A stretch of DNA of 64,000 nt. Source: Diplonema papillatum. Lineage: Eukaryota; Euglenozoa; Diplonemea; Diplonemida; Diplonemidae. Shown one piece after another: positions 13,375 through 58,667 of the stretch; position 1 is the stretch's first letter; each line of letters starts with the position of its first letter. The notes under the pieces were generated by a model. That model saw only the letters and a list, made by a program, of their open reading frames with translations, made no database searches and was not told the origin of the DNA. The position numbers were made by a program, and so were the translations under genes. The DNA lies in contig JAPJBO010000238.1 of assembly GCA_030068145.1 (NCBI GenBank), positions 203,771 through 267,770 on the forward strand, given 5' to 3'.

Positions 13375-13490
13375 ATGCGCGCCGACAGCGGACTGCTGCA
13401 TCCCGGCACGGAAGTCGAAGCCGTCGGCTTGGTGAACGCGGTGGGGCTTCGTCATCGGCCACCAACCAGTACCGACACTAAAATATCACT
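13375..13490 (+). pseudogene. LNG-module gene, 5' fragment 1
   Basis: Starts ATGCGCGCCGACAGCGGACT like the intact gene at 15006 but has a deletion of about 20 bases that removes the ELNGKR codons and shifts the frame. It then runs into the upstream-type sequence of the next copy. Orientation is the same as the intact gene. Confidence 0.8.
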
Positions 13491-13910
13491 CCCTGAAAAA
13501 ATGTACTCGAAACAGTAACCAGTACCGACACTAAAATATCGTTCCCTGAAGCAATGTACTCGTAACAGTCTGAAAAAAATGTCGTTCTCGAAAGAAGCAT
13601 AATCATGCCCCCAACCCTCATACTGCCCGCCTCACAGCCTCAATGGTCAACCGGAGACCCTAAAACACCGAACCTCTAAACCACAATGAACGCTAGAAGT
13701 GTAAGGCCCGCCACCCGCAGGATTGGGATTGTGAGTAATCAACCAACACAAACAACACACAAAACGAAGATACCCCGACAATGCGCGACGACAGCGGACT
13801 GCTGCACCCCGGCACGGAAGTTGAAGCCGTCGGCTTGGTGAACGCGGTGGAGCTCAACGGGAAGCGGGGCTTCGTCATCGGCCACCAACCAGTACCAACA
13901 CTAAAATATC
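13491..13910 (+). pseudogene. LNG-module gene, duplicated upstream region and 5' fragment 2
   Basis: A unit of about 420 bases comprising upstream DNA (CACAGCCTCAATGGTCAACC, CCACCCGCAGGATTGGGATT) plus the first 35 or so codons from ATG at 13781. The coding part keeps MRDDSGLLHPGTEVEAVGLV and ELNGKRGFVIGHQP, then fuses to the upstream region of the following copy and soon stops. If transcribed it could give only a short truncated peptide. Confidence 0.8.
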
Positions 13911-14449
13911 ACTCCCTGAAGAAATGTACTCGAAACAGGAACCAGTATCGACACTAAAATATCGTTCCCTGAAGCAATGTACTCGTAACAGTCTGAAAAA
14001 AATGTCGTTCTCGAAAGAAGCATAATCATGCCCCCAACCCTCATACTGCCCGCCTCACAGCCTCAATGGTCAACCGGAGACCCTAAAACACCGAACCTCT
14101 AAACCACAATGAACGCTAGAAGTGTAAGGCCCGCCACCCGCAGGATTGGGATTGTGAGTAATCAACCAACACAAGCAACACACAAAACGAAGATACCCCG
14201 ACAATGCGCGACGACAGCGGACTGCTGCACCCCGGCACGGAAGTCGAAGCCGTCGGCTTGGTGAACGCGGTGGAGCTCAACGGGAAGCGGGGCTTCGTCA
14301 TCGGCCACCAACCGGCACCCAACGGCAAGCTGCTGAATGCGGTGCGGTTCGAGCAGGGGCAGACCCGCCTGCTCGGCGGGAACAGCCTGAGGGGAGGCAC
14401 TAAAATATCGCTCCCTGAAGAAGTGTACTCGAAACACTCAAAGAAATGA
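13911..14449 (+). pseudogene. LNG-module gene, duplicated upstream region and 5' fragment 3
   Basis: The same upstream unit followed by ATG at 14204 and 64 codons closely matching the intact protein (through RLLGGNSLRGG), then a fusion at 14400 to AAAATATCG upstream-type sequence; the frame closes at 14449 after KISLPEEVYSKHSKK. This is the longest of the three truncated copies. The breakpoint GGAGGC/ACTAAAATATC resembles those of the other copies, in which ACTAAAATATC also follows the break. Confidence 0.82.
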
Positions 14450-14500
14450 CATTCCCTGCAGAAATGTACTCGAAACAGTCTGAAAAAATGTCGTTCTCGA

Positions 14501-14804
14501 GAAGAAGAAAAGAAAGAAAGAAAAAGAAAAAGGCCGCTCCGGGTCCAGGAACGTGACGGTCAACCACTGCTTGCAAGGCTTGAGTCGGAGGCAGCACAGT
14601 GCCACAACCCCGTCCGCTCTGCCCTGTGGCTGACCGTCTTGACGAGCTTGTGTTCAGCGCGAGCGCCAAGCCCGAAGGGGCGCCGAGCCTTGATGCTTTA
14701 GTTTGGGAAATCGGTAGCCACTTGACCCGTAGGCCCGTGGCTCTGCAGTACCGCCGAACACGTGAAGCTTGGCTCCCGTGTCGCAGGCTTTCCCTGGTAC
14801 CCAG
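14501..14804 (-). mobile_element. SINE-like element F, copy 2, with target duplication and empty-site paralogues
   Basis: About 300 bases from a GA-rich tract through GTCCAGGAACGTGACGGTCA to GCAGGCTTTCCCTGGTACC. The flanking TGTCGTTCTCGA occurs at 14489-14500 and again at 14805-14816. The corresponding position in two neighbouring duplicated units (near 13580 and 14000) carries this motif once, uninterrupted (TGTCGTTCTCGAAAGAAGC), so these are natural empty sites. This dates the insertion after the duplication of the upstream unit. Confidence 0.85.
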
Positions 14805-15005
14805 TGTCGTTCTCGAAAGAAGTATAATCATGCCCACAACCCTCATACTACCCGCCTCACAGCCTCAATGGTCAACCGGAGACCCTAAAACACCGAACCT
14901 CTAAACCACAATGAACGCTAGAAGTGTAAGGCCCGCCACCCGCAGGATTGGGATTGTGAGTAATCAACCAACACAAGCAACACACAAAACGAAGATACCC
15001 CGACA

Positions 15006-15755
15006 ATGCGCGACGACAGCGGACTGCTGCACCCCGGCACGGAAGTCGAAGCCGTCGGCTTGGTGAACGCGGTGGAGCTCAACGGGAAGCGGGGCTTCGT
15101 CATCGGCCACCAACCAGCACCCAACGGCAAGATGCTGAATGCGGTGCGGTTCGAGCAGGGGCAGACCCGCCTGCTCGGCGGGAACAACCTGAGGGGAGGC
15201 GTCGCGGCGCCTCTGCTGGATCTGACGGGGACCTGGGGCTGCTGGTACGGCCACCCGCACGTGTTCCAGCAGGAGAGAGAGCACCTGCACATCATCGACC
15301 TGAGCACCGGCCAGACGCACCAGGGACACGTGCTGAGGGGGAAGCGGGCGAGGCCTGACCCGTCGATGAAGGTCATCCGTGCAGACCACCCGAGGGATTG
15401 GTGGGGGCCGTTTGACGAGGAGCCGAGAGGGAAGAGCCAGGAGCCTTCTTCGCCGCGGGTGAAAAAGCTCGAGCTGCCGTGGGCCGAGAAGCGGAAGAAG
15501 ACGCTGCTGACCGTCTTCGCGATGGGCACGTCCGGAGAGTTCGACGGCGACAAGATCTACTGGAAGACCGGGAGCACGTGGGTCCGCAAGGGGGTCAACC
15601 CGACGACGCCGCCGCGGCTCGCGGCGCAGTCGTTGCCGCCGAACCTGAGCCAGCGCGCCACCCCGCGGCCGGTGACCATCTCCCCGGACCTCAGCCCAGC
15701 ACCGGCGGAAGCTCGTCGTGCGGCGAATGACACGTCAGACGAGTTCATGATCTAG
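15006..15755 (+). CDS. Protein with SH3-like LNG module, intact copy
   Basis: A 249-residue intronless frame. The N-terminus has GLVNAVELNGKRGFVIG, then RFEQGQTRLLGGNNLRGG. This matches the small beta-barrel module common in protist and algal proteins (consensus LNGxxGxVxG, then a charged strand and NL). Residues 74-110 are rich in His, Trp and Gly (GTWGCWYGHPHVFQQE), followed by a basic segment, a TVFAMGTSGEFDGDKIYWK block and a Pro/Ser-rich disordered tail to EFMI. The start ATG is in a GACAATG context like other genes here. Three 5' fragments precede it and one 3' fragment follows, so this is the only complete copy. Molecular role is not known; such modules often mediate protein or RNA contacts. 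Confidence 0.8.
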   Translation: MRDDSGLLHPGTEVEAVGLVNAVELNGKRGFVIGHQPAPNGKMLNAVRFEQGQTRLLGGNNLRGGVAAPLLDLTGTWGCWYGHPHVFQQEREHLHIIDLSTGQTHQGHVLRGKRARPDPSMKVIRADHPRDWWGPFDEEPRGKSQEPSSPRVKKLELPWAEKRKKTLLTVFAMGTSGEFDGDKIYWKTGSTWVRKGVNPTTPPRLAAQSLPPNLSQRATPRPVTISPDLSPAPAEARRAANDTSDEFMI

Positions 15756-15769
15756 ATCTAGTCAGTGGC

Positions 15770-16075
15770 CTGCATTCATCATGATGTTCACATGGACGAA
15801 AGTCACGGTCAGAGTGGACTTCATTTCATAATGCTCAGAGGGTGGTAGTATCCTATCCAGCAAATTCATGATATTCAGATAGAAGCCAATCATATTCAGA
15901 ATAAGCTCAATGCATGAGAAGAGAGTCATGTTCAGGATGAGCTCAGTTCGTGATGTCCAGATGGAAGTAAGTCATGTTCAGCAAGTTCACGATGATCAAA
16001 TGGAATGGCGTGTGCTCAACCCATGATGTTCAGGTGGAATACAGCCGTGTTCATCAAATTCTCATGCTGTTGCAG
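15770..16075 (+). repeat. Degenerate tandem repeat with GATGTTCAGATGGAA
   Basis: Loose repeats of TTCATGATGTTCAGATGGAA and GTCATGTTCAGCAAGTTC, each about 40-45 bases, occupy the 3' flank of the LNG gene. The same motif continues after the 3' fragment at 16535-16690. No coding potential. Confidence 0.65.
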
Positions 16076-16084: not shown

Positions 16085-16440
16085 CTCAGCGGAACTCAGC
16101 TCGCCGCTTTCGCGATGGGCACGTCCGGCGACTTCGGCTGCCTGAGAAGAAAATGGCAGTGGAGCTGCAGCTGAAGTCACTCTCTGCCGACGTAGATGAT
16201 CAGTTGTCATGGAAGTACTCTCCGAATCATCCCATTGGCACCCTTCGGAGCCGCACGTCGCTTCGCGTGTTCCGCACTCGACGAGCACGCTTTCCGACGG
16301 CGACAAAATCTACTGGAAGACCGGCAACACGTGGTCCCGCAAGGGTCAACTCTCGGCGCAGTCGAACCTCAGCCGGCTCAGCTCGGCACCGGCGGAAGCT
16401 CGTCGCGCAGCGAATGACACGACAGATGAAAGTCAGTGGC
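16085..16440 (+). pseudogene. LNG-module gene, 3' fragment
   Basis: 16100-16131 matches TTCGCGATGGGCACGTCCGG of the intact gene, then about 160 bases of other sequence intervene, and from about 16297 the copy resumes (DGDKIYWKTGNTW in frame, then SAPAEARRAANDT). The original stop is lost and the frame runs to 16490. It is downstream of, and parallel to, the intact gene, mirroring the 5' fragments upstream. Confidence 0.8.
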
Positions 16441-17059
16441 CTGCGCTCATCAGTTCGTCATCATGCTGCTCAGAGTTCAAATGGAAGTAAGCCATGTGAT
16501 GAGCTCATGACCACAATAAACGCTAGATGACATGTTTTGATTGAGCATCATTGTAATGATGCTCAGATGGAATATAGTCATGTTCAGGGTGAGGTCAATT
16601 TCTGATGTTCAGATAGAAGAAAGGTCATGTTCAGTGAGCTCAATTCATGCTGTGGATTATATACTTCACGTTCAGCAAACTCGTGGGCTTACGCCAGGAT
16701 TCTCCAGCCGAGCTCAGCTCGTTGGATTCTAGCCTCAAGTTGTCAGCGCCGAGGGGGGGGGGGCGAAGCACGGACGCATGGGTCTAAATAGGCGACGCCG
16801 AACGCCACCCCCCCCCCTAGGCATGCATAAAAATAAGAATCGGCCTTCTGGGGGGGCGTTACCCGTTACCCGTTACCCGTCCTTATTTTTATCCGACTGT
16901 GGCTGAGGTGGGCTGCTCCTGAGGCCCAGCATGGTGGGTGCGTTGCTGCGGCCCAGCGCGCCGAGTGGACTGCGCGTGGACTGCGCCGGGGCCCGGCGTG
17001 CGTGAGGCCCAGTACGTCGGGTGGACTGTGCCTGAGGCCCGGCATACTGGGTGGGCTAT

Positions 17060-19509: not shown

Positions 19510-20718
19510 GGGGGGGTCAAAAGGTCTTTTTTTGCGTCAAAATGGTGACATTTTCAGCCTGTAGACTTAACGGCAGTTTAAGGCTAAAAAAACATGCAAC
19601 CCGCCTCAGAAATGCCCGGAAACGTGTTTTTGGGGAAAGTTTCATGGAAAATGGCCCAGGGGGGGGTGTATTAGTTGATGGTTTTAGGGTGGACACCGTT
19701 TGGTACCGGCTAGCTGCCTGTGTGTGTGCTTCACTGTTCATACCATGCAAAGATGAGGCTACAATCACGTGCAGGCAGCCACAAATGGAAGCAACAAAAG
19801 GGCAAACGACACCCAGGAGGAAGGCAGCTATGAACGTTGCTCGTCTGGATGGTTAACAACGTCCCAAAAGGTTCTCTGGGTCTTGCGCAAGCTGAGGTGT
19901 TGTTGACACCGCAGGCAGCAGCTCTTCCCCGAACTTCTGCTGGGGCGATATTCACAAAGTTCGATGTCTTTCCGAGAAAAACAATGAGATGCTCTCATCC
20001 GTAGTGGGATTTTCCAGATCCCAACGTTTTTGTTGAAGGGATGCACGCGACAGTGTCTTTTATTCAAGTTCGCCTTTCGTACACCACCCCGAAAGGGTCG
20101 CATTGCACACGCACGGAAGACAATACTGGTCACCGGGGTGTATCTCTGGTACCTAACCCCAACGCACGTTGAGCTTGAACAAAAATAGAAAACTGGACTT
20201 GAACGAAAAGGTTCGGCGGTGGATTTATAGGACTGCCACGACATAGCAGCTCAGGGCAGGGTATCTGCAGCTTGCGGTAGCACGCTACACGACACAGGCC
20301 ACTACGAAAGCTGGCGCTGACGTCAAGGACTCGAGGGGGCGGCACGTTACGAAGCCGTACCTCATTGAGTCGCTTGTCGATGCCTCCTACGAAGCCCCAC
20401 CATCCCCAACTCTCAGGAAAGTCTTTTGAGTAAAAATACATAGGTTTGGGCAGTGTTGTTTTCCTTCTTCGGTTCATGCTGTCACTATTTTTGGGGTTGT
20501 CACCTAAAAAGAAGAACACCGGTACCAAACGGTGTCCACCCTGAGTCCAAAAATTGGGCACTCGTAAAAAGGCCTTTTCGGGGCACTTCAGCAGCCAAAA
20601 AGCATGTTTTAGGCATTTCTATACGGTTCTGGGGCGGTTTACCAAATTTTATTGCCTTTCAGGAGCCCCTATGTGGTTCCCAAAAAAATGACCTATTTTG
20701 ACAGCTTTTGACCCCCCC
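19510..20718. mobile_element. DNA element A, copy 2
   Basis: Begins GGGGGGGTCAAAAGGTC directly at the TA that ends element C and finishes CTTTTGACCCCCCC followed by TA (20719-20720). It is close to copy 1 throughout, including the internal 23-base inverted repeat. A two-base insertion (TATCTCTGG versus TATCTGG near 20145) breaks the 243-codon frame present in copy 1. Confidence 0.88.
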
Positions 20719-20720
20719 TA

Positions 20721-21183: not shown

Positions 21184-21485
21184 CCGTGAGAAGGAGGTCT
21201 CGCCGCCGTTCGACCTGCTCAACTAAAGGGGGGGGTCGCATAATAACACCAGCGATTATTATTTATTATTCGATTTTGTCGAATACTAAAAAAAGTTCCG
21301 GGTAGCCGAACAGTAGCAGAATCAAGTAGTGGTAGTGTCTTTAGCAACCAGACGTGTGTCAAATAACTGTCATTTTGCGACCCCCTTTACCAGCCCGGGT
21401 CCGAGCGGCAGAAGTGCGACTTCAGGGAGATCCGCATCGACGAGGCAGAGCTCCGCCTGCGGCCTTACCCGCCGGCGCCCGAGTG
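21184..21485 (+). pseudogene. ML-like gene, 5'/middle fragment interrupted by a MITE
   Basis: CCGTTCGACCTGCTCAACTA (21206-21225) and CCCGGGTCCGAGCGGCAGAA (from about 21393) onward are contiguous in the intact gene (21877-21990), but here element H sits between them at the TA. After the match ends (near 21470) the reading frame is not maintained. The fragment lies upstream of the intact gene in the same orientation. Confidence 0.85.
21226..21387. mobile_element. MITE-like element H, copy 1 (162 bp)
   Basis: Ends are AAGGGGGGGGTCGCA and, reverse-complemented from the right, AAGGGGGTCGCA. TA flanks both sides (21224-21225, 21388-21389). Its target is known exactly because the intact paralogue (AACTACGAACCCGGG) lacks it. 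A related copy, diverged on the left, lies at 56231-56363. Confidence 0.85.
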
Positions 21486-21732: not shown

Positions 21733-22551
21733 ATGTCGCTGTCCACTATGTCGGCCCCGTTGCTGATCCTTTTCTGCGTGTGTTTGGCGGCGGGGGATCT
21801 GTCGGTCAACGACGCGAAGCGCAGCGTGCTGGCCGGGCCCGCGCTGCGGGTGTGGCGGAAGCACCGGTGCATGAAGCCGTTCGACCTGCTCAACTACGAA
21901 CCCGGGTCCGAGCGGCAGAAGTGCGACTTCAGGGAGATCCGCATCGACGAGGCGGAGCTCCGCCTGCGGCCCCCTTCGGCCGAGTCCACGGGGGACGAAG
22001 CTGGCGGCATCGCATTGGAGGTGTGGGCAAAGGGAGCGTCCGACGACGGCACGTTCTCCGGAACGTTCGAAATCGAGGTGGAAAACGCAGACCTCGGCAC
22101 CGTGGCGCACTACCAGCGGACCGACGCGGGCGGGTCTTCGGTCGAGGTCGTCGCGAAGGACGACGTAGATTCCTCTTCCCCCGGCGGCGAAGCTGGCGCC
22201 CCAGCTGCCAGAGGCAGCAAGCGGCAGTTCTCGTTCTGCTGCGAATTCTTCGGCAGCGCGCACTGCGCGCCAGACGCAGCCGGGAACACGCCGCCGGGGG
22301 CTGCGATCACGGTGTGTCCGACGCTCACCGCCGGCGAGGAGTTCGAGGGCAGCGCCGTCGTGCATTTGCCCGGCTCGTTCGTCGCCGCACGGACGGCGTA
22401 CAAAGCGCGGATGGTGGTGCGGGCCAACTCAGGCGACGTCATCGGCCGGGTGGGCTTCTCCTTCAAGCTGTCGCCGGAAGTGCTCGAGAAACTCGCTGCG
22501 TATCGCGCCAACGAAAGCTCCCGTGCCCAGCAGCCGGCGGAAGAGCTTTGA
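21733..22551 (+). CDS. Secreted protein, probable ML (MD-2-related lipid-recognition) type
   Basis: A 272-residue intronless frame with ATG in AACAATG context. Residues 1-21 (SAPLLILFCVCLAAG core) are a signal peptide. The mature part has PFDLLNYEPGSERQKCDF, a strand FSGTFEIEVENADLG, a Cys pair in FSFCCEFFGSAHC, then ITVCPTLTAGEEFEGS and a late strand-rich block with AYKARMVVRANSGDVIG. The order (lipid-pocket strands, paired Cys, CP...G, then xYxxxxxxxDxxG-like end) suggests an ML/NPC2-type lipid-binding fold, but the match is by pattern only. It likely acts in the secretory pathway, vacuole or outside the cell. A fragment with a MITE lies upstream and a shrunken 3' fragment downstream. Confidence 0.7.
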   Translation: MSLSTMSAPLLILFCVCLAAGDLSVNDAKRSVLAGPALRVWRKHRCMKPFDLLNYEPGSERQKCDFREIRIDEAELRLRPPSAESTGDEAGGIALEVWAKGASDDGTFSGTFEIEVENADLGTVAHYQRTDAGGSSVEVVAKDDVDSSSPGGEAGAPAARGSKRQFSFCCEFFGSAHCAPDAAGNTPPGAAITVCPTLTAGEEFEGSAVVHLPGSFVAARTAYKARMVVRANSGDVIGRVGFSFKLSPEVLEKLAAYRANESSRAQQPAEEL

Positions 22552-22559
22552 AACCCCAA

Positions 22560-23060
22560 ACATAATATAATGGCTAGACACGAAGCGAACGGCAGAAGTC
22601 GAATAACCTGCAACAGACTACAATGCCACACATTTTCTTGCACTAACACTCGCACACACCGACATGTGCTCTATCGTGCCAACGAATGTGAACTCAGTGT
22701 CAGTCGAATGATCCCCGGATATGGCTAGACACAACGCGAAATGATAGCGGGTCCTCAATGAAGTCGAATGGCCTGCAGCAGGGTACAAAAGACAGACCTG
22801 CATGCAGTTCCAGCACGAATACGATGTGCACACCAATATGCGGGATCGTGTTAAGACGAATGTGAACTCGGTGTCAGTCGCATGATCCCCGGATATGGCT
22901 AGACACAACGCGAAACGATAGCGGGTCCTCAATGAAGTCGAATGGCCTGCAGCAGGCTACAAAAGACACACACCTGCATGCAGTTCCAGCACGAGTACGA
23001 TGTGCACACCAATATGCGGGATCGTGTTAAGACGAATGTGAACTCGGTGCCGGTCGCAAG
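22560..23060 (+). repeat. Tandem repeat of about 180 bp in the 3' flank of the ML-like gene
   Basis: Two good units (about 22690-22865 and 22866-23045) and a degenerate first one share GATCCCCGGATATGGCTAGA, GTCGAATGGCCTGCAGCAGG and CAATATGCGGGATCGTG. ATGGCTAGACACAACGCGAA resembles the text near 58780 after the fatty-acid-synthase exon, so this 3'-flank motif is dispersed. Confidence 0.82.
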
Positions 23061-23063
23061 AAC

Positions 23064-23205
23064 AACACGCCGCTTGGGGCTGCGATCACGGTGTGTCTGA
23101 CGCTCGCCGCCGGCGGCGGCGTAAGCTGTCGCCGGAGGTGCTCGAGAACCTCGCTGCGTACCGCGCCAACGAAAGCTTAGCAGCCCGCGGAAGAGCTTTG
23201 ATAAC
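23064..23205 (+). pseudogene. ML-like gene, 3' fragment with internal deletion
   Basis: GGGGCTGCGATCACGGTGTG (matching 22299-22318) is joined after a deletion of about 150 bases to AAGCTGTCGCCGGAGGTGCT (matching 22467 onward), then CGCGCCAACGAAAGC and GAAGAGCTTTGA. The frame is broken. It is downstream of and parallel to the intact gene. Confidence 0.85.
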
Positions 23206-23582
23206 TCAACGTCGAAGAAGTCGAATGGCCTGGAACGGACAGACTACAAAGACACACCACCACTCGCACGAATAAAATATGACCAATACGCGGTATATCG
23301 TGCGAACGAATGCGAACTCGGGTGTCTCAAAAGAAGTTGAATAGCTAGCAAAAGACACACCTACCCTGCACTACCACCCCGCACGAATACAATTATGCAC
23401 ACCTACATTTGGTATTGTACTTACGAATGTGAACTCGGACGTAAACCTCCCGGATTCTCCCAGCCAATTTATACTCTAAACCCCGCTTGTGCCGGGTGGC
23501 CCAGCATGCAAGCCGGTTGTTCTTCAGCCCATCCCTCTCACGGTGCTGAAGGGAAGCACCAGGCAACGAAGAAATACTCGAG

Positions 23583-23690: not shown

Positions 23691-23973
23691 ACAAAAATAA
23701 TTTTCTGAGCACGGGGGCACTGCGTAGAGCTCAAGGCGCCTCTCAGGACAGAGTAACGAGCCCGCCTGACGCAGTACCACGAAGGTGAGACAAGAGGCGC
23801 TAGCACTCTCTCTCTCTTTCTCTGAAAAGGACAGCACAATTGCACGACTGCTTCTCGACCGAGTAGCAGGCCAGGGCGATGGATTTCTTCAATCGGCTGT
23901 TTAAAGCCAAGGACGGCGCCGGTCATCCACTTTCGGGACCGGTGCATTCGGCAGGCGAGTTGTTGCACACTCA

Positions 23974-24403
23974 TTATCGGATGCCGACTTCTACCATGGC
24001 CACCGTCTTGCTGTCGACATGAACCGACACCCTTTGTGGGATCTGATGAGCGACCACTCGACACCTGAAGTCAGCCCTAGGTTCATCCCTCATCGCCATT
24101 CCTTGCTTTACCTCAACTGGCCACTCACCACCAGTCCCGTACCAGGAAATGCACACGCTTTTCTCGATTGTTCAGCTCGAAGTCAACGGCGAGCTCGAAG
24201 TACGAGACGGAGACCTCCTTGCCGGTCAGGTCCATCGCTTCGTCGAGCACCATTCTGCCAGCACCACGAGCATCGTGGGTGTCCTTCCATGCGTTGCGGT
24301 CCGGCGGCCGCCGACGTTGATGGTTTGGCTGGCCGTCGTCCGTTGCAGCTCCCATGTAACTTTGTTGCATTTCAATGAAGCTCCGAACGAAGACATTCGC
24401 CAC
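23974..24403 (-). pseudogene. Possible coding remnant on the minus strand, frameshifted
   Basis: The minus-strand frame starting at 24403 reads MANVFVRSFIEMQQSYMGAA, then MVLDEAMDLTGKEVSVSYFE and LAVDFELNNREK. Near 24165 the protein-like text moves to another frame and continues VCISWYGTGGEWPVEVKQG, then RCRVVAHQIPQRVSVHVDSK to a stop near 23974. Neither segment is repetitive and both have natural amino-acid composition, so this is probably one coding region with a single frameshift. No family is recognised. Confidence 0.35.
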
Positions 24404-24843: not shown

Positions 24844-24889
24844 AAGTGAGTGATAACGTGCGTCTTGTTCGCCGCAGTGGCGGTGCCAT
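24844..24889 (+). pseudogene. Esterase gene, 5' fragment 1
   Basis: GTGAGTGATAACGTGCGTCT followed by TGTTCGCCGCAGTGGCGGTG matches the signal-peptide codons of the gene at 26713, but the ATG is lost and only about 45 bases remain. Confidence 0.7.
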
Positions 24890-24975
24890 GTTTGCGCGCT
24901 AGCGGAACTCACCTGCTTTGGTAAGTTTCACGTACGCTGCCAGCTACTAATTTGTTGGAACGATGCGTTGTTGAC

Positions 24976-25045
24976 GGAGATCCCCCCCGCGCCTCTACCC
25001 TATGAAGCGAGTGATAACGTGCGCGCAGTGGTGGTGGTTTGTGCG
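24976..25045 (+). pseudogene. Esterase gene, 5' fragment 2
   Basis: Keeps part of the 5' flank (GAGATCCCCCCCGCGCCTCT) and ATGAAGCGAGTGATAACGTG, then a deletion removes the LLAA codons and shifts the frame. Confidence 0.75.
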
Positions 25046-25164
25046 CACTATGAAACGTAACAAAGCAGATGAGTTCCGCTTTAGTACGCTGCCAACTACT
25101 TCTCGGTGCCAAACCATGCAGTGTTAATGCAAAAAAGAGCAGAAACGAGTCTCGCGATTGACAC

Positions 25165-25430
25165 CTCCAGGAGATCACCCCCGCGCCTCTGCCCAACTCG
25201 GTAAATGTGAAGCGAGTGATAACGTGCGCCTTGCTCGCCGCAGTGGTGATGCCAGGCGTCGCCCTGGACGCATGGACCCGCTGGCGCGGTTTACGCGCGG
25301 TGGACGGGACCTGTGGGGCCTTCTACCTACTTGGAAGGCGTGGAGAGTGCACGACGGAGGACGCGTGCAGGGGGAAGCTCGACTCCGCGCTGGGATCGTC
25401 GAAGACGACGATCGTCAGGGCTCAAAATAA
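25165..25430 (+). pseudogene. Esterase gene, 5' fragment 3
   Basis: Includes the 5' flank (CACCTCCAGGAGATC), the start region (now GTG at 25207 instead of ATG) and codons through KLDSALGSSK, with deletions in the FVIHLEGGG region and after ALDA. It then breaks into unrelated sequence and an E-like piece (CTGCCTTGTGCACAT). It is the longest of three upstream fragments. Confidence 0.85.
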
Positions 25431-26620: not shown

Positions 26621-26712
26621 AATACCAGCAATGCTTTGCTGACACGCGAAAGTTGCGAGAGATATCACACCTCCAGGAGATCCCCCCCGCGCCTCTGCCC
26701 AACTCGGTAAAT

Positions 26713-27870
26713 ATGAAGCGAGTGATAGCGTGCGCCTTGCTCGCCGCAGCGGTGGTGCCAGGCGTCGCCCTGGACGCCACTTTGTACAGTCTGCAGGACA
26801 TCGACCCGCTTGCGCGGTGTATGGACGGGACCTTCGGGGCCTTCTACCTGCAGCCCAACACGACCGCGGAGGGAGGGAAGAAGTTCGTCATCCACTTGGA
26901 AGGCGGCGGAGAGTGCACGACGGAGGACGCGTGCAAGGGGAAGCTCGACTCCGCGCTGGGGAGCTCGAAGGGGTACGCGAAGACGCTCCGCGGGCTGCCG
27001 TTTTTGATGGACGCCGACGCGGGGAGGAACCCGGACTTCCACGACGCGAGCCACGCGTACGTGAAGTACTGCAGCCAGGACCTGCACACCGGGCAGCACA
27101 CGGAGCCGAACGCCTGGGGGGTCATCTTCGCGGGGCACCACGTCGTCAACGCGACGTTCCGCGCCCTCTTGAAGAATCATGGGTTGTCCGCCGCAGCGTC
27201 TGTCATCCTGTCCGGAGACAGCGCTGGCGGCATCGGGGTGTGGCCCCACGTAGACCAGCTTTCCCAGCTACTCGCGCCGTACGGAACGCGGGTGGTAGCA
27301 GTCCCGATAGCCGGATTCTACTTCGACGCGAATGTACCGTACCGGGGTGTGAACCACACGTCCTCTGGTCTTGCGAACTTCAGCTCCGAAGGGCTTGCGG
27401 AGGCGTATTCGCTGTGGGGGTCCTTCGTCAACCCTGTGTGCGAGCTCACCCTCGGGCCGGTGAACAAGGCGTCCGAGTGCCTGTTGGCGAACAATTCGTT
27501 CCCCTTCGTCTCCTCCGAGAGCTTCGCTGTAGAGGCGCAAACCGACATGGTCGTGCTCACCGCCCACGACTGGATGCCTGGTCCCCCGGACCTCTGCAAT
27601 GCGCCGCAGCAGCAGTACCTTTCCGAGTGGAGTGGCTGGATGCAGGCCGCGCTGCAGCCCCTTTTGGAGCCCGCGAACGAGCGGCACGGGGTGTTCAACC
27701 CGGCGTGCTTCATCCACACGGCGTTCAACTCTTCGGCTCCGTTGATCGACGGAGTTTCGTACATCACCGCCCTCGGCAACTGGTTCTTCAAGCGTCCCGG
27801 CCCCTACAAGCTGAAGGACACCTGCGGCATCTTGTGCAACCCGTCGTGCGTTTCGCCTTGTCCGAAGTAG
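26713..27870 (+). CDS. Secreted Notum/pectin-acetylesterase-family carboxylesterase
   Basis: A 385-residue intronless frame from ATG at 26713 (an in-frame upstream extension to 26653 is unlikely because the signal peptide starts here). Residues 1-20 (MKRVIACALLAAAVVPGVAL) form a signal peptide. HLEGGGECT (61-69) is the oxyanion-hole loop, SGDSAGGIG (167-175) carries the probable nucleophile Ser170, Asp278 in AQTDMVV is the likely acid and His335 in CFIHTAF the likely base; spacing agrees with the family. Several NxS/T sites fit secretion, and Cys residues are numerous. Members deacylate sugar or protein esters: pectin acetylesterases release acetate, Notum removes palmitoleate from Wnt. The substrate here cannot be told. 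Three 5' fragments precede and one 3' fragment follows. Confidence 0.85.
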   Translation: MKRVIACALLAAAVVPGVALDATLYSLQDIDPLARCMDGTFGAFYLQPNTTAEGGKKFVIHLEGGGECTTEDACKGKLDSALGSSKGYAKTLRGLPFLMDADAGRNPDFHDASHAYVKYCSQDLHTGQHTEPNAWGVIFAGHHVVNATFRALLKNHGLSAAASVILSGDSAGGIGVWPHVDQLSQLLAPYGTRVVAVPIAGFYFDANVPYRGVNHTSSGLANFSSEGLAEAYSLWGSFVNPVCELTLGPVNKASECLLANNSFPFVSSESFAVEAQTDMVVLTAHDWMPGPPDLCNAPQQQYLSEWSGWMQAALQPLLEPANERHGVFNPACFIHTAFNSSAPLIDGVSYITALGNWFFKRPGPYKLKDTCGILCNPSCVSPCPK

Positions 27871-28258
27871 TGTATCGTGTCACTGTGTGTTCCTCCGCCT
27901 CGTTTGTCCAGATTCTTTCCAGCATCTCTTTTCAATCCCCCAACGTCGTCAAGAGGCCTGATCAGCCTGTTTGCAACACGGATTGGAGGAGAGGTGAGCG
28001 TGTGGATACGTGCTTCATCGACCTGGCGTTCAACTCCAACTCTTCGGCTCCTTCAATCGGCGGCGTTTCGTACATCACCGCCCTCGGCAACTGGTTCTTC
28101 AAGCATCCCGGCCCCTACAAGCTGAAGGACACCTGCGGCATCTTGTACAACCCGTCGTGCGTTTCGCCTTGTCTGAAGAAGTAGTGTACCGTGTGTTCAT
28201 CCGTCTCGTTTCCTCAGGTTCTTTCTAACGTCTCTTTCAATCCCAACGTCGTCCGAGG
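27871..28258 (+). pseudogene. Esterase gene, 3' fragment with duplicated 3' flank
   Basis: 28010-28184 repeats the last 55 or so codons (CFIDLAFNSNSSAP, then YITALGNWFFK and CGILYNPSC) to a TAG at 28182-28184. The following flank (TCTTTCAATCCCAACGTCGTC) repeats the flank of the intact gene (27930-27950). The duplicated unit is therefore the gene's 3' end plus downstream DNA. It has no start and is probably not expressed alone. Confidence 0.88.
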
Positions 28259-41128: not shown

Positions 41129-41375
41129 TTCTTCTTCATATCCTTCTTCTTTTTCCTTCGCCCGACCCCTTTTTCCGTTGCTCTTTCCCACCCCCGTTGG
41201 GGTTTTGCGCCTTCTTAATCAGTTGCACGTGCATGCGAATCATGCAAAGAATAGTTTGTCGGACCTCATGAGTGTTCGTGCTGCTACTGGCGTATTCGAA
41301 GCAGGATCGAATCCCTCCTCTCGTTAAGGTTGCCCTGTTTGGGTTATCTGTCGAGAGTGGCGACTGAACTATTCT

Positions 41376-41480
41376 TCAGAGCTCTTTCTCGATGAATTGT
41401 GTGGTGGTGCATGGCCGCTCCTGGTTGGCGGAGTGATTTGTCAGGTTGATTCCGTTAACGAACGAGATCTCGACCCTTAA
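41376..41480 (+). pseudogene. Small-subunit rRNA fragment, longer copy
   Basis: CAGAGCTCTTTCTCGATGAA, GTGGTGGTGCATGGCCGCTC and TTCCGTTAACGAACGAGATC follow the conserved order of SSU rRNA helices 32-36. Upstream and downstream sequence is not rRNA. It overlaps the part present at 4221-4262. Confidence 0.88.
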
Positions 41481-41499
41481 AATAGGTGGGCGTGTCGTT

Positions 41500-42800
41500 G
41501 TTGGGGGTGTCTTTTGGCATCGGCGGCTTGCTGCTTACCCGAGACGCGCACTACTTCTTAAGGGGACTGCGCGCGACTTATAGCGCGCGGAAGAGCGAGC
41601 CAATAGCAGGTCTGTGATGCTCCTGAATGTCCTAGGCTGCACGCGCACTACACTGACGCATTAAACGAGTTTGAGACGTGACCCTACGTGATAAAAACTG
41701 TATCGAAGCGCGGAGCCTACTCGGCTTCGGTCAGGTAGACGAGACACATTTCAGAAAAGGGAGATGCACATCGAACGTAAAGAACGTGGTTCAACTGCAC
41801 CGAGTCAAAAAGCTGGAGTTGCACCCGATTTCACAGTGGGGTGTGCTTTACCCAGCTTTTGTGTGCGTTGTGTGCCCCCAAAAAGCGGGTGTGTTAAACT
41901 CTCAGCACCGCCGTGTGCACTCCCCCCAGCTGATAGCTGGCACGGCACGGTTGTACTTTGCTCTCAATCAGCTGCCTGACCAAGCAGACACGCACCGCCT
42001 GTGTCCTGTTTGCAGGCACTCACGTTGCACGACGAGAAACGGTCTGTCTGTTCGCGGTTCGGATGGGTGGTCTGCTGCATGTCCGTAGCTTTAAAGACCG
42101 AAACACGGTGCCAATAGGGCACGGTACGGCCTTGGGCACACGACTTGCAACCCAACCCACAATCAAGTTCCCGCCGTGTTGAGTGGGCTTCGAAGCGACG
42201 CCGTTTCCCACAGGCACGCATTCAGCCCCGAAGCCGGTTCGGGACGAAAGAGAGAAACGCAGCAAGAAAAAAAAAAAACACAAGCCGCGAGGCCGGCGGC
42301 TACTGGTTCCGCCAAACTTCGCGAAGCCCCGCCGCGTCCGGAACGAATGTTCCTTCCAGCAGGTGCTTGCCACACCCGCACAATGGACCACGCGGTATAC
42401 CTCCTCTACCTGGTGCTGTGGACTCCACACCGTGTACGCGTACGCGTTTGCCCTCCAGCCCCCCCAGATTCGCCTGTGCTCTGGTAGCACGGGTGGTCCT
42501 GGCTCTGACGAGCTACGAACAGCCGCCTGACAAACCAGACTCCCAGCTGCCCTGTCTGACGTGTCCGTGGCTTCAAGGACCGAAACACGGCGCCAGACGG
42601 GATCCGTGCGATGTTGTGCACAAATCCGTTCCAAGCACGTTCTTGCAAACCAGCCCCCCCCCCCGCCCCCCCCATTTCTTCACCTTCCTGCAGACGACAC
42701 TTCCTCTAGCTTCCCGTCGGCGTGGCTGCGTGCTTGATGGGCATCCGAAGCATACGTATATCAGGGGTGCAAAGTACATCGTATGTTTGTCCCCCTGTGC
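41500..42800. other. Non-coding region with diverged duplications
   Basis: Two related blocks, near 42045-42140 and 42525-42610, share GTCCGTAGCTTTAAAGACCG / GTCCGTGGCTTCAAGGACCG and AAACACGG. A third relative lies near 57310-57360 (TACGAACAGCCGCCTGACAA is shared with 42515-42534). J-like text (AAAGCTGGAGTTGCACCCGA, AAAAAGCGGGTGTGTTAAAC) occurs at 41808-41900. No gene is convincing. Confidence 0.45.
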
Positions 42801-44504: not shown

Positions 44505-47500
44505 GACGCTGGAGTTAGAAAGGCGAGTGTCACACCCGCTTTTCGGGTGTACATACACACGCACTTTGAACGTAGCACACCGATTCTGAGTGAAATACAC
44601 ACGCACTTTGTATGTAGCACACCCGCTTTTCGAGTGTACATACACACGCACTTTGAACGTAGCACACCGATTCTGAGTGAAATACACACGCACTTTGTAT
44701 GTAGCACACCCGCTTTTCGAGTGTACATACACACGCACTTTGGATGCAGCACACCCGATTTTGAGTTTACTTGCACACGCACTTTGGATGTAGCACACCT
44801 GCACTTTGGATGTAGCACACCCGCTTTTCGAGTGTACATACACACACGCTTTGAACGTAGCACACCGATTCTGAGTGAAATACACACGCACTTTGTATGT
44901 AGCACACCCGCTTTTCGAGTGTACATACACACGCACTTTGGATGCAGCACACCCGATTTTGAGTTTACTTGCACACGCACTTTGGATGTAGCACACCTGC
45001 ACTTTGGATGTAGCACACCCGCTTTTCGAGTGTACATACACACACGCTTTGAACGTAGCACACCGATTCTGAGTGAAATACACACGCACTTTGTATGTAG
45101 CACACCCGCTTTTCGAGTGTACATACACACGCACTTTGGATGCAGCACACCCGATTTTGAGTTTACTTGCACACGCACTTTGGATGTAGCACACCTGCAC
45201 TTTGGATGTAGCACACCCGCTTTTCGAGTGTACATACACAAACACTTTGGAGGTAGCACATCCACACACACACTTTGAATATAGCACACCCGCTTTTCGA
45301 GTACATACACACACACTTTGGAGGTAGCACATCCACACACACTTTAATTATAGCACACCCGCTTTTCGAGTGTACATACACAAACACTTTGGAGGTAGCA
45401 CACCCCCTTTTCGAGTACATACACACACACACTTTGGAGGTAGCACATCCACACACACTTTGATTATAGCACACCCGCTTTTCGAGTACATACACAAACA
45501 CTTTGGAGGTAGCACATCCACACACACACTTTGAATATAGCACACCCGCTTTTCGAGTACATACACACACACTTTGGAGGTAGCACATCCACACACACTT
45601 TAATTATAGCACACCCGCTTTTCGAGTGTACATACACAAACACTTTGGAGGTAGCACATCCACACACACACTTTGAATATAGCACACCCGCTTTTCGAGT
45701 ACATACACACACACTTTGGAGGTAGCACATCCACACACACTTTAATTATAGCACACCCGCTTTTCGAGTGTACATACACAAACACTTTGGAGGTAGCACA
45801 CCCCCTTTTCGAGTACATACACACACACTTTGGAGGTAGCACATCCACACACACTTTAATTATAGCACACCCGCTTTTCGAGTGTACATACACAAACACT
45901 TTGGAGGTAGCACACCCCCTTTTCGAGTACACATACACACACACTTTGGAGGTAGCACATCCACACACACTTTGATTATAGCACACCCGCTTTTCGAGTA
46001 CATACACACACACCTTGGAGGTAGCACATCCACACACACTTTAATTATAGCACACCCGCTTTTCGAGTGTACATACACACGCACTTTGGATGCAGCACAC
46101 CCGATTTTGAGTTTACTTGCACACGCACTTTGGATGTAGCACACCTGCACTTTGGATGTAGCACACCCGCTTTTCGAGTGTACATACACAAACACTTTGG
46201 AGGTAGCACATCCACACACACACTTTGAATATAGCACACCCGCTTTTCGAGTACATACACACACACTTTGGAGGTAGCACATCCACACACACTTTAATTA
46301 TAGCACACCCGCTTTTCGAGTGTACATCCACACACACTTCACACACACACTTTGAATATAGCACACCCGCTTTTCGAGTGTACATACACAAACACTTTGG
46401 AGGTAGCACACCCCCTTTTCGAGTACATACACACACACACGTTGGAGGTAGCACACCCCCTTTTCGAGTACATACACACACACCTTGGAGGTAGCACATC
46501 CACACACACTTTAATTATAGCACACCCGCTTTTCGAGTGTACATCCACACACACTTCACACACACACTTTGAATATAGCACACCCGCTTTTCGAGTACAT
46601 ACACACACACTTTGGAGGTAGCACATCCACACACACTTTAATTATAGCACACCCGCTTTTCGAGTGTACATCCACACACACTTCACACACACACTTTGAA
46701 TATAGCACACCCGCTTTTCGAGTACATACACACACACCTTGGAGGTAGCACATCCACACACACTTTAATTATAGCACACCCGCTTTTCGAGTGTACATAC
46801 ACACGCACTTTGGATGCAGCACACCCGATTTTGAGTTTACTTGCACACGCACTTTGGATGTAGCACACCTGCACTTTGGATGTAGCACACCCGCTTTTCG
46901 AGTGTACATACACAAACACTTTGGAGGTAGCACATCCACACACACACTTTGAATATAGCACACCCGCTTTTCGAGTACATACACACACACTTTGGAGGTA
47001 GCACATCCACACACACTTTAATTATAGCACACCCGCTTTTCGAGTGTACATCCACACACGCTTCACACACACACTTTGAATATAGCACACCCGCTTTTCG
47101 AGTGTACATACACAAACACTTTGGAGGTAGCACACCCCCTTTTCGAGTACATACACACACACACGTTGGAGGTAGCACACCCCCTTTTCGAGTACATACA
47201 CACACACCTTGGAGGTAGCACATCCACACACACTTTAATTATAGCACACCCGCTTTTCGAGTGTACATACACAAACACTTTGGAGGTAGCACACCCCCTT
47301 TTCGAGTACATACACACACACACGTTGGAGGTAGCACACCCCCTTTTCGAGTACATACACACACACCTTGGAGGTAGCACATCCACACACACTTTAATTA
47401 TAGCACACCCGCTTTTCGAGTGTACATCCACACACACTTCACACACACACTTTGAATATAGCACACCCGCTTTTCGAGTGTACATACACAAACACTTTGG

Positions 47501-49135
47501 AGGTAGCACACCCCCTTTTCGAGTACATACACACACACTTTGGAGGTAGCACATCCGCACACACTTTGATTATAGCACACCCGCTTTTCGAGTGTACATC
47601 CACACACACTTCACACACACACTTTGAATATAGCACACCCGCTTTTCGAGTGTACATACACAAACACTTTGGAGGTAGCACACCCCCTTTTCGAGTACAT
47701 ACACACACACACGTTGGAGGTAGCACACCCCCTTTTCGAGTACATACACACACACCTTGGAGGTAGCACATCCACACACACTTTAATTATAGCACACCCG
47801 CTTTTCGAGTGTACATACACAAACACTTTGGAGGTAGCACACCCCCTTTTCGAGTACATACACACACACACGTTGGAGGTAGCACACCCCCTTTTCGAGT
47901 ACATACACACACACCTTGGAGGTAGCACATCCACACACACTTTAATTATAGCACACCCGCTTTTCGAGTGTACATCCACACACACTTCACACACACACTT
48001 TGAATATAGCACACCCGCTTTTCGAGTGTACATACACAAACACTTTGGAGGTAGCACACCCCCTTTTCGAGTACATACACACACACTTTGGAGGTAGCAC
48101 ATCCGCACACACTTTGATTTTAGCACACCCGCTTTTCGAGTGTACATCCACACACACTTCACACACACACTTTGAATATAGCACACCCGCTTTTCGAGTG
48201 TACATACACAAACACTTTGGAGGTAGCACACCCCCTTTTCGAGTACATACACACACACTTTGGAGGTAGCACATCCGCACACACTTTGATTATAGCACAC
48301 CCGCTTTTCGAGTGTACATCCACACACACTTCACACACACACTTTGAATATAGCACACCCGCTTTTCGAGTGTACATACACAAACACTTTGGAGGTAGCA
48401 CACCCCCTTTTCGAGTACATACACACACACTTTGGAGGTAGCACATCCGCACACACTTTGATTTTAGCACACCCGCTTTTCGAGTACATACACACACACC
48501 TTGGAGGTAGCACATCCACACACACTTTAATTATAGCACACCCGCTTTTCGAGTGTACATCCACACACACTTCACACACACACTTTGAATATAGCACACC
48601 CGCTTTTCGAGTGTACATACACAAACACTTTGGAGGTAGCACACCCCCTTTTCGAGTACATACACACACACTTTGGAGGTAGCACATCCGCACACACTTT
48701 GATTTTAGCACACCCGCTTTTCGAGTGTACATCCACACACACTTCACACACACACTTTGAATATAGCACACCCGCTTTTCGAGTGTACATACACAAACAC
48801 TTTGGAGGTAGCACACCCCCTTTTCGAGTACATACACACACACACTTTGGAGGTAGCACATCCACACACACTTTGATTATAGCACACCCGCTTTTCGAGT
48901 GTACACACACTTTGAATATAGCACACCCGCTTTTCGAGTGTACATACACAAACACTTTGGAGGTAGCACACCCCCTTTTCGAGTACATACACACACACTT
49001 TGGAGGTAGCACATCCGCACAAACTTTGATTATAGCACACCCGCTTTTCGAGTGTACATTCACACACACTTTGGAGGTAGCACATCCACACACACTTCGA
49101 ATATAGCACACCCGCTTTTCGAGTGAACATACCGA
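44505..49135 (+). repeat. Giant minisatellite (4.6 kb) with higher-order structure
   Basis: Roughly one hundred units of about 45 bases, built from TAGCACACCCGCTTTTCGAG, TGTACATACACACGCACTTT and GGAGG or GGATG. Variant units (CCGATTTTGAGTTTACTTGC, CCGATTCTGAGTGAAATAC) form higher-order blocks: 44767-44952 recurs 198 bases later, 46045-46505 recurs 724 bases later, 47076-47549 recurs 548 bases later, 48000-48269 recurs 172 bases later. The left edge contains a J-type hairpin (GTGTCACACCCGCTTTTCGG), the probable founder. Long open frames on both strands (up to about 300 codons) exist because the units lack stops in several frames; I find no start context, domain or non-repetitive part and do not call genes. 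Confidence 0.95.
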
Positions 49136-52187: not shown

Positions 52188-52271
52188 GAGCGGAATGTGA
52201 CTTCTGCCCAGTGCCCTGAATGTCAACGCTGAGAGATCAGGTCAAGCGCGGGTGTACGGCGGGAGTAACTG

Positions 52272-52302
<31 letters not shown>

Positions 52303-52460
52303 TTTTAATTTAAGACGCGCATGAATGGACCAATGAGATTCCTTCTGTACCTACCTACCATCTGGCGAAACAGCAGTCAGAAACGGTCAGCGGGGAAAGA
52401 AGACCCTGTTGAGTTTGGCTCTATTCTGACCACATCGTGGGAAAGTTGTGAGTGCAGAGT
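52188..52460 (+). pseudogene. Large-subunit rRNA fragment (domain IV-V region)
   Basis: ATGTGACTTCTGCCCAGTGC, GGCGGGAGTAACTGTGACTC, TCTTAAGGTAGCCAAATGCC, GACGCGCATGAATGGACCAA and GGGGAAAGAAGACCCTGTTG occur in the correct order of the LSU rRNA, including the deeply conserved CTCTCTTAAGGTAGC segment. About 270 bases are well preserved and then the match stops. It could be an isolated fragment or one piece of a discontinuous rRNA, but no adjoining rRNA pieces are present, so a pseudogene is more likely. Confidence 0.88.
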
Positions 52461-52464
52461 ACTG

Positions 52465-56230: not shown

Positions 56231-56363
56231 GTTATTATTCGATTGATTGTCGAATACTAAAAAAAGTTTCGGGTAGCCGAACAGTGGCAGGATCAAGTCG
56301 TGGTTGTGTTTTTAGACAACCAGACGTGTCAAATAACTGTAATTATTCGACCCCCCCCCCCTT
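56231..56363. mobile_element. MITE-like element H, copy 2 (left end diverged)
   Basis: TTGTCGAATACTAAAAAAAG, GGGTAGCCGAACAGT and AACCAGACGTGT match copy 1 at 21226-21387. The right end TTCGACCCCCCCCCCCTT is followed by TA. The left terminus of copy 1 (AAGGGGGGGGTCGCA) is not present in the expected place. Confidence 0.75.
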
Positions 56364-57640
56364 TAGTACCCTGAATTTGCCAGGAACAAAAGAAATAACT
56401 GTTCGATGCCAGCGTACTATCCTCGATGAAGGAAGCGCGCACAACCAAAGTCGCGGCCTTTTTGCTCGAGCTTCTGAGGCTGGACGCCACCGTTGCACTT
56501 CTTGGTCGGAACCATTTTTCTTCTTTCTTTTTTTTTCCGTCTCTTATCTCTTCTTCTGTCCTAAATGCCACCTCCCTTCACACCGAACTCCCCAGTTTAC
56601 ATGGGTAAAGTCCTAAACACGAGAAAAAGACCGTTCGATGTCTCCTTTCTAGATTGGGGGTCTGCTCCCGCGTCTGCGCCACCATGACATCACTTAAGTG
56701 ATCTGCTGGCCCAACATGCGTGCCTTCGCCACCATGATCAAAAGCCGCTGTACGCATGTTGCGGTCAAAAAACACGCAGTCATCTCGGGGCCTCAAGTGG
56801 CAACTGTGCAATGAGCTTGACCTGACAAGCTATTCCAAACTCCTGGTGCAAGCACCCGTCATGGTCGGCAGTCGCCACCTGGGTCACAGTTTTGAATCCT
56901 GTTCCGAGACTCGCTCGCACGGGGAAAAGGCGCGAATCACTTGTCGTCAAGCATTCTGCAATACTGACGACTGCTACCCCCTGCGTGTGTTTGTAATAAG
57001 GTGTCGGTGAGTACTCATTGTTTGGACGGTTTTTAGACTGTTTTTAAGACAAGTTGAATGTGTGTTCCCTGACCCACGAAGACATGCAAACAGCGGCTTA
57101 TGATCACGGTAGCGAAGGCACACATTTTTTAACCAGCAGAAATGCTTTGAGCACCAAGACAGCTTCTTCATCTTGACTCGGGTGAGATGTGCCGCCTGGT
57201 GCACGGGGCCGAAACCCCGTGCAAACCGAAACACGGCTACTACACGTACGCGACGGCGTGGGGAAGGACCGTGCATGTGAGTGGTCCAGAGACGGGTTTT
57301 ACCCGCTGCCCCCGTAGCATGGGTGATAGCTACGAACAGCCGCCTGACAAACCAGGCTCGCATCGTACAGCTCCGAGGCACCGTCGGTGGAAGCGGACAC
57401 TGCAGTCGTACGGCCGCCGGTCTAACACCGCAACATGAAAACAGAAGTCTTGAGCCGGGTGCCGGATGGAGAAAGCTGACAGCCTCCCACGCCAAAGGAT
57501 CCCGCCCCCACCCACCCTTCGGAGAGGAGTCACAGGACCCAAAAGCAGCGTGTCGGAAACTCAAAGCCGACTGGTGAAAGTGACAAGTGGGCTATACTTC
57601 GACTCAGACGTTTCCAGACCACTCGAAAGCCCTGAACGTA
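56364..57640. other. Non-coding stretch
   Basis: GAGCTTCTGAGGCTGGACGC near 56470 is a J half. 57320-57360 shares TACGAACAGCCGCCTGACAA with 42515. No exon or gene could be supported. Confidence 0.35.
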
Positions 57641-57859
57641 AATAGAGTAGGTCTGTCGTGGCGAGCAAGCTCGCTGCCTTCAGCGGCAAGGGCGTCAACA
57701 TGGTGCAGGACCTAGCCCGGGAGCACACCGCGATCCTGAAGCCATTCTTGGTGCAGTGCGGCGACGCGCTCGGGAACTGCTACCCGGACCTGTACGGAGA
57801 CGACGATGGTCATGCAGCACGGAAAGTTCGACCTCCTGCACGCGCTCGAGACCGACACG
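57641..57859 (+). pseudogene. Fatty-acid-synthase gene, 5' fragment
   Basis: Matches the intact first exon at 58188 (GGCAAGGGCGTCAACATGGT, AACTGCTACCCGGACCTGTA, GCACGGAAAGTTCGACCTCC) but the start codon and neighbouring bases are deleted (GAGTAGGTCTGTCGTGG), nine bases are missing after GACCTAGCCCGG, and two bases are missing at GACGATGGTCATG, which shifts the frame. It breaks off after GAGACCGACACG. It is upstream of and parallel to the intact exon. Confidence 0.88.
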
Positions 57860-58009
57860 CTGCCTTTCAGTCGTTGCTCACTCTGCGCCTTCGGCACGTC
57901 ACATTTCTGAGCGAGCTACACATATCCAGTCGCCAAAGCGAGGTTGGAGACATCAGCCAAAAAGCTTTAACCCCCCGGATCCCAAAGCGAACTTGCTCTC
58001 TAAAAAGCT

Positions 58010-58135
58010 TTCACTCTAAAAAACGACGATCCTTCGAAGGCTTCACACAAAGACCAGGCTACAACTCTGAAAAACAGTCTAAAAAGCAGTCTAAGAGACA
58101 ACCTAAAAAACAGTCTAAACAATTACTTTAATACA
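58010..58135 (+). repeat. CAGTCTAAAAAG short tandem repeat
   Basis: Five or so units of AAACAGTCTAAAAAGCAGTC-type sequence lie between the fragment and the intact gene. Confidence 0.7.
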
Positions 58136-58187
58136 CACACGCAGGAAGAACACTAGAAAACAACAAAAGAGTAGAGTAGGTAAGACA

Positions 58188-58667
58188 ATGTCTGTCGTGG
58201 CGAACAAGCTCGCTGCCTTCAGCGGCAAGGGCGTCAACATGGTGCAGGACCTCGCCCGGACAGCCCGGGAGCACACTGCGATCCTGAAGCCGTTCTTGGT
58301 GCAGTGCGGCGACGCGCTCGGGAACTGCTACCCGGACCTGTACGGAGACGACGATGTCGTCATGCAGCACGGAAAGTTCGACCTCCTGCACGCGCTCGAG
58401 ACCGACACGTTGAGGAACCAGCTGGATTCGCCGGCAGTGAACGGGTCACTGTCAACGATCTCCCAGATGACCCACTTCTTCCTGCACATGAAACACGCAG
58501 GGAAGGGCGTCGACGAAGCCGGCGGCGAGTTCTCCGGCTTCTCCGGGGACAGGGAAGGTCTGTTGTCCGCCGTCGCAGCCGCCAGCAGCGCCTCTGACGC
58601 CGAATTCGGCTCGAACGCCGCGAAGGCCATCAGGGCCGCCTTCTACGCGGGACTGCACCCGGACAAG
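58188..58667 (+). CDS. Fatty-acid synthase, starter acyltransferase domain, first exon
   Basis: 160 codons from ATG (GACAATG context) to AAG before the donor GTATTC. The protein runs ANKLAAFSGKGVNMVQDLAR, then LYGDDDVVMQHGKFDLLHAL, LDSPAVNGSLSTISQMTHFF and FSGFSGDREGLLSAVAAASS, ending AIRAAFYAGLHPDK. Order and spacing match the acetyl/starter-unit transferase at the N-terminus of the fungal-type FAS beta subunit (a QLxHY-type helix, then the GxSxG elbow, then a conserved helix ending xFxxGxR). In the elbow the usual GHSQG is GDREG, so the nucleophilic Ser is absent. The domain is either catalytically altered or inactive. The A/C-rich CACACACGCAG 44 bases before ATG could be a spliced-leader acceptor. 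Confidence 0.6.

Follow-up and report, generated by a model that had tools for sequence, protein, structure and literature searches.

Why do genes in one stretch of the Diplonema papillatum genome stand among parallel pieces of themselves? The stretch analyzed (64,000 nucleotides; contig JAPJBO010000238.1, C238 in our numbering, positions 203771-267770; hereafter "the window") holds five such genes: an LNG-module gene, an ML-like gene, a pectinacetylesterase gene, an EF-hand gene and a FAS-like gene. We assign a probability of roughly 0.84 to the explanation that the fragments are decaying leftovers of recurrent small head-to-tail duplications (∼0.1-1 kb), such as occur across all the sequence that was sampled.

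Direction and order of the partial copies

The window was compared with itself, and each gene was compared with the 6 kb on either side of it using blastn (E up to 1e-3 or 1e-4). Parallel partial copies were found within 6 kb of all five genes, and no inverted partial copy was found over the same distance. Upstream copies derived from the first half of the gene and downstream copies from the second half on 8 of 8 gene-sides. The first-pass annotation had stated that the fragments at all five loci are parallel and that 5′ pieces never lie downstream nor 3′ pieces upstream, and both statements were confirmed; the range it gave for the five loci (13375-58667) leaves out the EF-hand pieces. Direction and order are counted here as one fact, because a head-to-tail duplication cut within a gene forces both. 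With one breakpoint within the gene and the other outside, a duplication would leave the gene complete and add, in the same orientation, either its 5′ part on the upstream side or its 3′ part on the downstream side. Duplications retaining an intact copy would be tolerated, and the partial copy would then drift. The striking regularity of the window is what simple tandem duplication predicts.

E-values for window matches ranged from 3.9e-5, for a piece of 23 bases, to 1.6e-95 and 5.5e-96; taken singly, pieces as short as 21-28 bases carry little weight. As a control, three unrelated 12-kb stretches were searched for each of 49 open reading frames (ORFs), giving one match in total. Searches of the whole genome (271 Mb in 2910 contigs) with the LNG-module, ML-like, esterase and EF-hand genes returned close copies in this window only, other relatives being at 67-76%.

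The LNG-module gene, for which no Pfam match was obtained at E 0.01, is arranged as follows:

12888-13299: 43-base minisatellite, from the window self-comparison
13300-13473, plus strand: upstream copy 1, ∼73 bases of 5′ flank and gene bases 1-116 (gene part 13375-13473; 83% over the gene part)
13580-13896, plus strand: upstream copy 2, ∼200 bases of 5′ flank and gene bases 1-116 (gene part 13781-13896; 98%)
14003-14398, plus strand: upstream copy 3, ∼200 bases of 5′ flank and gene bases 1-195 (gene part 14204-14398; 98.5%)
15006-15755, plus strand: intact gene, an ORF of 249 amino acids (aa)
16109-16642, plus strand: downstream pieces, 3′ part of the gene (16109-16429) and 3′ flank (16570-16642)

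All three upstream copies retain the ATG together with some of the DNA before it. After 5′ copies lie 53-base units related to the 43-base array (13464-13569 and 13887-13991), and the stretch between the last upstream copy and the flank of the gene (14500-14802) recurs three times elsewhere in the window. Downstream, the gene pieces at 16109-16136, 16295-16350 and 16377-16429 correspond to gene bases between 511 and 737.

Copies of both gene ends also accompany the esterase gene:

24844-25394, plus strand: three copies of the 5′ end (matches 24844-24888, 25002-25024 and 25208-25394)
26713-27870, plus strand: intact pectinacetylesterase gene (Pfam PAE, E 6.7e-57)
28009-28253, plus strand: copy of the 3′ end, gene bases 992-1158 (28009-28181) and 3′ flank, 85-90%

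The upstream copies span gene bases 1-23, 4-48 and 2-248. The longest carries 46 bases of 5′ flank (25161-25206, matching 26667-26712); in it GTG replaces ATG, and the alignment has gaps of 22, 44, 7 and 1 bases.

The ML-like gene, again with no Pfam match at E 0.01, is placed between two interrupted pieces:

21205-21464, plus strand: upstream piece, internal, gene bases 144-239, start absent
21733-22551, plus strand: intact gene, an ORF of 272 aa
23064-23209, plus strand: downstream 3′ piece with an internal deletion (matches 23064-23115 and 23123-23201)

Between the two parts of the upstream piece (21205-21225 and 21388-21464) lie 162 bases; most of this stretch (21263-21385) is also present at 56232-56355. 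The downstream piece covers gene bases 553-604 and 733-819. The earlier description of a complete pattern at three loci, with 5′ pieces upstream and 3′ pieces downstream, holds for the LNG-module and esterase genes and for the downstream side of the ML-like gene; it fails for the ML-like upstream piece, which is internal to the gene.

Only the upstream half of the pattern had been described for the two remaining genes:

5583-5752, plus strand: EF-hand upstream piece, 98.8%, gene bases 94-263 (numbered from the 8595 ATG)
8595-10007, plus strand: EF-hand gene, start ambiguous, with in-frame ATGs at 8595 (the first) and 8691
57651-57862, plus strand: FAS-like upstream 5′ piece, 93%, gene bases 3-225, start codon and frame lost
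58188-58745, plus strand: first part of the FAS-like gene (Pfam SAT)

Parallel upstream pieces are indeed present at both genes, with qualifications as to which part of the gene they represent. The EF-hand piece begins three bases ahead of the in-frame ATG at 8691 and has ACG at that codon, so it would be a copy of the 5′ end if 8691 is the start codon and an internal copy if 8595 is. In the FAS-like piece the ATG falls in a gap of 10 bases and is missing, and there are gaps of 9 and 2 bases. When 40 of 898 candidates for the FAS-like exon were scored, the last 72 bases of the ORF (58746-58817) were matched at 97-100% in 39 other places. The first exon of this gene therefore probably ends before 58746, since the ORF ends in a dispersed repeat. 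A match downstream of the FAS-like gene (58942-58982, E 7.7e-4) was discarded, because those last 72 bases of the ORF are the repeat.

Repeats also adjoin the pieces themselves. Nearly all of the ∼2.5 kb between the EF-hand piece and its gene (5785-8250) recurs elsewhere in the window: 5785-6993 and 19510-20720 form a long repeat that is 99.3% identical, and 6985-8250 and 34647-35867 form another at 92-94%. A dispersed repeat of ∼220 bases reaches to at least 57640, adjoining the FAS-like piece, and was found at 39 other places (40 of 1456 candidates scored).

Local duplicates in a sample of other contigs

Generality was assessed with 250 kb taken from contigs C10, C35 and C120, giving 314 kb together with the window. 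Forty-nine ORFs, seven of them in the window, were compared with their own 6-kb flanks; window ORFs 14204, 24125 and 61965 were excluded as fragments or doubtful. The comparison gave 42 rows of local matches, none of them inverted. Nineteen rows were dropped, these belonging to a five-copy gene array, to two long related ORFs and to one ORF that is itself a fragment. Among the fragment rows kept, 22 of 23 obey the order described above, as do 12 of 13 gene-sides. The clearest example outside the window is the ORF at 21937-23577 of the C35 sample, the last 0.3 kb of which is present with its flank in about three head-to-tail copies. Also in the C35 sample, a 570-aa ORF is repeated in tandem as five almost identical copies (70046-85286 of the sample; C35:120046-135286).

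A local repeat was defined as one of 40 bases or more whose copies are no more than 2.5 kb apart, overlapping palindromes being left out. In the 314 kb, 47 clusters were direct and 4 inverted. Thirty-two of the direct clusters are purely intergenic, 10 join a gene to DNA outside it and 5 lie inside ORFs; all 4 inverted clusters are intergenic. Of intergenic points, 23.4% in the window fell in a local direct duplicate, compared with 5.3% for the sample. The idea of a very active process thus suits the window and fits the sample less well.

ORF boundaries were scored in the same way, using the 43 of the 49 ORFs that have at least 120 aa and a coding score of at least 0.15 per residue. Local direct duplicates contained 5 of 14 boundaries in the window and 3 of 72 in the sample; the binomial probabilities of counts this high or higher are 0.21 and 0.74, respectively. 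Two of the three sample matches are the ends of one ORF that is itself a fragment. When short-period arrays were removed, the intergenic background became 10.7% for the window and 3.25% for the sample, and P for the sample became 0.42. No targeting of genes is apparent in the independent sample. Comparing window and sample boundaries directly (5/14 versus 3/72) gives a Fisher P of 0.0024, which is not an independent result because the window was picked for the pattern.

Probable tandem duplication and its alternatives

The upstream DNA carried by the LNG-module and esterase copies, and the downstream DNA carried at the same two genes, mean that DNA and not mRNA was copied there. Retroposition would instead insert reverse-transcribed pieces of mRNA near the gene. 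Spliced-leader sequences are embedded in genomic DNA upstream of ORFs elsewhere in this genome, and the FAS-like piece (the EF-hand piece too, if the start is 8691) begins near the ATG, as an mRNA copy would. Against these points stand the genomic DNA beyond the gene ends in the LNG-module and esterase pieces, the local and parallel placement of close copies, and the absence of the spliced-leader core from the window within 4 mismatches. The flank evidence does not extend to the FAS-like, ML-like and EF-hand pieces. Taking all of this together, we consider retroposition highly improbable.

Several observations weigh against tandem duplication. In the EF-hand, ML-like and FAS-like upstream pieces homology to the flanks stops after a few bases, although their gene parts are 93-99% identical to the genes. 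Two of these three flankless pieces, FAS-like and EF-hand (edges at 57641-57655 and 5580-5590), start at an ATG of the intact gene or no more than ∼20 bases from one, and tandem duplication does not predict edges so placed; it leaves the ATG-close start of the FAS-like piece, perhaps also that of the EF-hand piece, unexplained. Window boundaries are in excess once short-period arrays are removed (5/14 against 10.7%, P 0.012), a result that depends on how arrays are treated and comes from a window chosen for this very pattern. The independent sample is small, genes were called as ORFs by a home-made hexamer coding score rather than taken from annotations, and 3 of the 5 gene-sides outside the window have matches of only 19-32 bases. 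One of those three short-match genes, C10 2202, produced the only control match to an unrelated stretch, and long matches outside the window were obtained for C35 21937 and C35 99339 only. The latter (C35 99339-99665) supplies the one row of 23 that breaks the order; it is a poor copy beside a questionable 109-aa ORF, close to where a sampled block ends. Our confidence in tandem duplication was lowered slightly because of the P of 0.012 and the ATG-edged pieces.

The flankless upstream pieces (EF-hand, ML-like and FAS-like) could instead have been picked up and transported by transposable elements, or be patches left by local templated repair. The EF-hand piece is highly identical to its gene and lies beside the repeats at 5785-8250, a dispersed repeat reaches the FAS-like piece, and a recurring stretch lies inside the ML-like piece; the missing flank homology is also in keeping with such capture. 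Captured fragments would be expected in several places together with the element, but no second copy of any piece was found elsewhere among the candidates scored (for the FAS-like gene, 40 of 898), and every piece runs parallel to its gene on the side expected under tandem duplication. We therefore regard this explanation as unlikely. Under tandem duplication, later insertions of dispersed repeats and deletions would have eroded and separated the pieces, which would explain the lost flanks.

The 5′ fragments might alternatively be kept for a function, as transcribed decoys or as alternative first exons with competing trans-splice sites. The ATG and preceding DNA in all three LNG upstream copies, two of which are 98% identical to the gene, would suit such a role, as would the window's boundary enrichment when short-period arrays are removed. 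The high identity of the LNG copies may equally reflect youth. At the other loci the FAS-like piece is startless and frameshifted, the longest esterase copy has GTG and deletions, the ML-like piece is startless, and in the EF-hand piece the sole candidate start covered, at its edge, reads ACG. Furthermore, boundaries are not enriched in the independent sample, 3′ pieces occur as well as 5′ pieces, and one such array is reported to lie outside mature mRNA (PMC10161547). On this evidence a retained function is very unlikely.

Errors of assembly must also be weighed, since repeats and minisatellites are where assemblies fail. The copies, however, are of unequal length, and their sequences diverge by as much as a third. 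Fewer than 600 variant sites were reported in 142 Mb, the genome is taken as haploid, and long reads support one structure of like kind (PMC10161547). We give an artefact almost no credence.

Small tandem duplication followed by loss, as first proposed, agrees with the parallel and local placement of the pieces, with the flanks copied at the LNG-module and esterase genes and with the head-to-tail example on C35. Its extension to the EF-hand, ML-like and FAS-like pieces, whose flanks no longer show their origin, is inferred, as is the presumed neutrality of the pieces. The mechanism would act at the level of DNA, by slippage, microhomology-mediated repair or unequal exchange; in the alignments, inspected by eye, most junctions have diverged. 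A further suggestion, speculative and doubtful, is that small head-to-tail duplication is concentrated in hot spots, this window among them, where it would be seeded by minisatellites (the 43-base array and its relatives join LNG copies) and biased toward gene ends. Gene ends would then be copied again and again, and could supply polycistronic transcription with new 5′ ends or 3′ untranslated regions (UTRs).

Repeat-bounded genes and genomic background

Gene structures bounded by repeats have already been described for the D. papillatum genome (Valach et al. 2023, PMC10161547), where dozens of gene models with adjacent repeats are called "repeat-bounded gene structures". In many of them the 5′ region, including parts of the 5′-UTR and coding sequence, is repeated in tandem upstream; in others the 3′ end of an exon is repeated in the first intron, or in the 3′-UTR for single-exon genes (PMC10161547). 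The gene in figure 2 of that paper has 13 upstream copies, 12 at 71-96% identity and the most distal at 47%; its assembly is backed by long reads, and RNA-seq coverage indicates that the array is absent from mature mRNA. The LNG-module and esterase loci resemble the first class, having 5′ flank and part of the coding sequence upstream in tandem, and the LNG-module, ML-like, esterase and C35 genes resemble the second in having the 3′ end repeated downstream. The FAS-like, ML-like and EF-hand upstream pieces differ from the structures as described in their lack of flank homology. Tandem duplication would join the two classes under one cause, and its rate can be tested genome-wide. The passages of PMC10161547 on these structures give "dozens" and one figure, and no order rule, rate or intergenic comparison was found in them. 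Such repeats mislead automated gene models (PMC10161547), which gives the arrangement a bearing on annotation. A search of the literature for "repeat-bounded" with Diplonema found PMC10161547 alone. Tandem duplications that cut genes in Drosophila yakuba (PMC5460883) and partial gene duplicates in general (reviewed in PMC3449122) are comparable, partial duplicates being common; those cases were studied as polymorphic duplications and as young gene duplicates in animals and yeast.

Other repeated sequences were noted in the window. A 4.6-kb array at 44531-49132 consists of nested degenerate repeats, and four pieces of ribosomal RNA (rRNA) genes are present:

4440-4591, minus strand: 5.8S rRNA piece, full model length
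23852-24160, minus strand: 28S rRNA piece
41362-41631, plus strand: 18S rRNA piece
52202-52329, plus strand: 28S rRNA piece

Approximately 3600 scattered 28S pieces have been reported for this genome of ∼280 Mb, in which U2, 5S and spliced-leader RNA genes alternate up to 27 times in a row (PMC10161547). On contig C1335 we counted at least 27 U2 genes after scoring 46 of 2120 candidates, with a spacing of mostly ∼1.24 kb and two wider gaps. The count is a minimum, and the match to the published number may be luck.

Spliced-leader sequences were located with a 23-base query, which we take to be the Diplonema spliced-leader core. It has 604 exact copies genome-wide, including those of true spliced-leader RNA genes, and the reversed control has none. 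Contigs C66, C164 and C240 each have a copy of the core no more than 1 kb from a U2 gene. These spliced-leader, U2 and rRNA features agree with the identification as D. papillatum, which they make very probable. One spliced-leader exon in genomic DNA (C35:81163-81185) is upstream of a 346-aa ORF (locus L020, ORF 1221-2261), with the ATG 35 bases after the core. At loci L032-L034 the ATG follows the core by 107-174 bases, and ORFs of 442-464 aa run to the locus ends or nearly so, with only a sub-threshold Pfam match. Retrogenes with an embedded spliced leader are known in dinoflagellates. From their sequence, the ORFs preceded by a spliced leader look like retroposed trans-spliced mRNAs or a retroelement bearing the leader.

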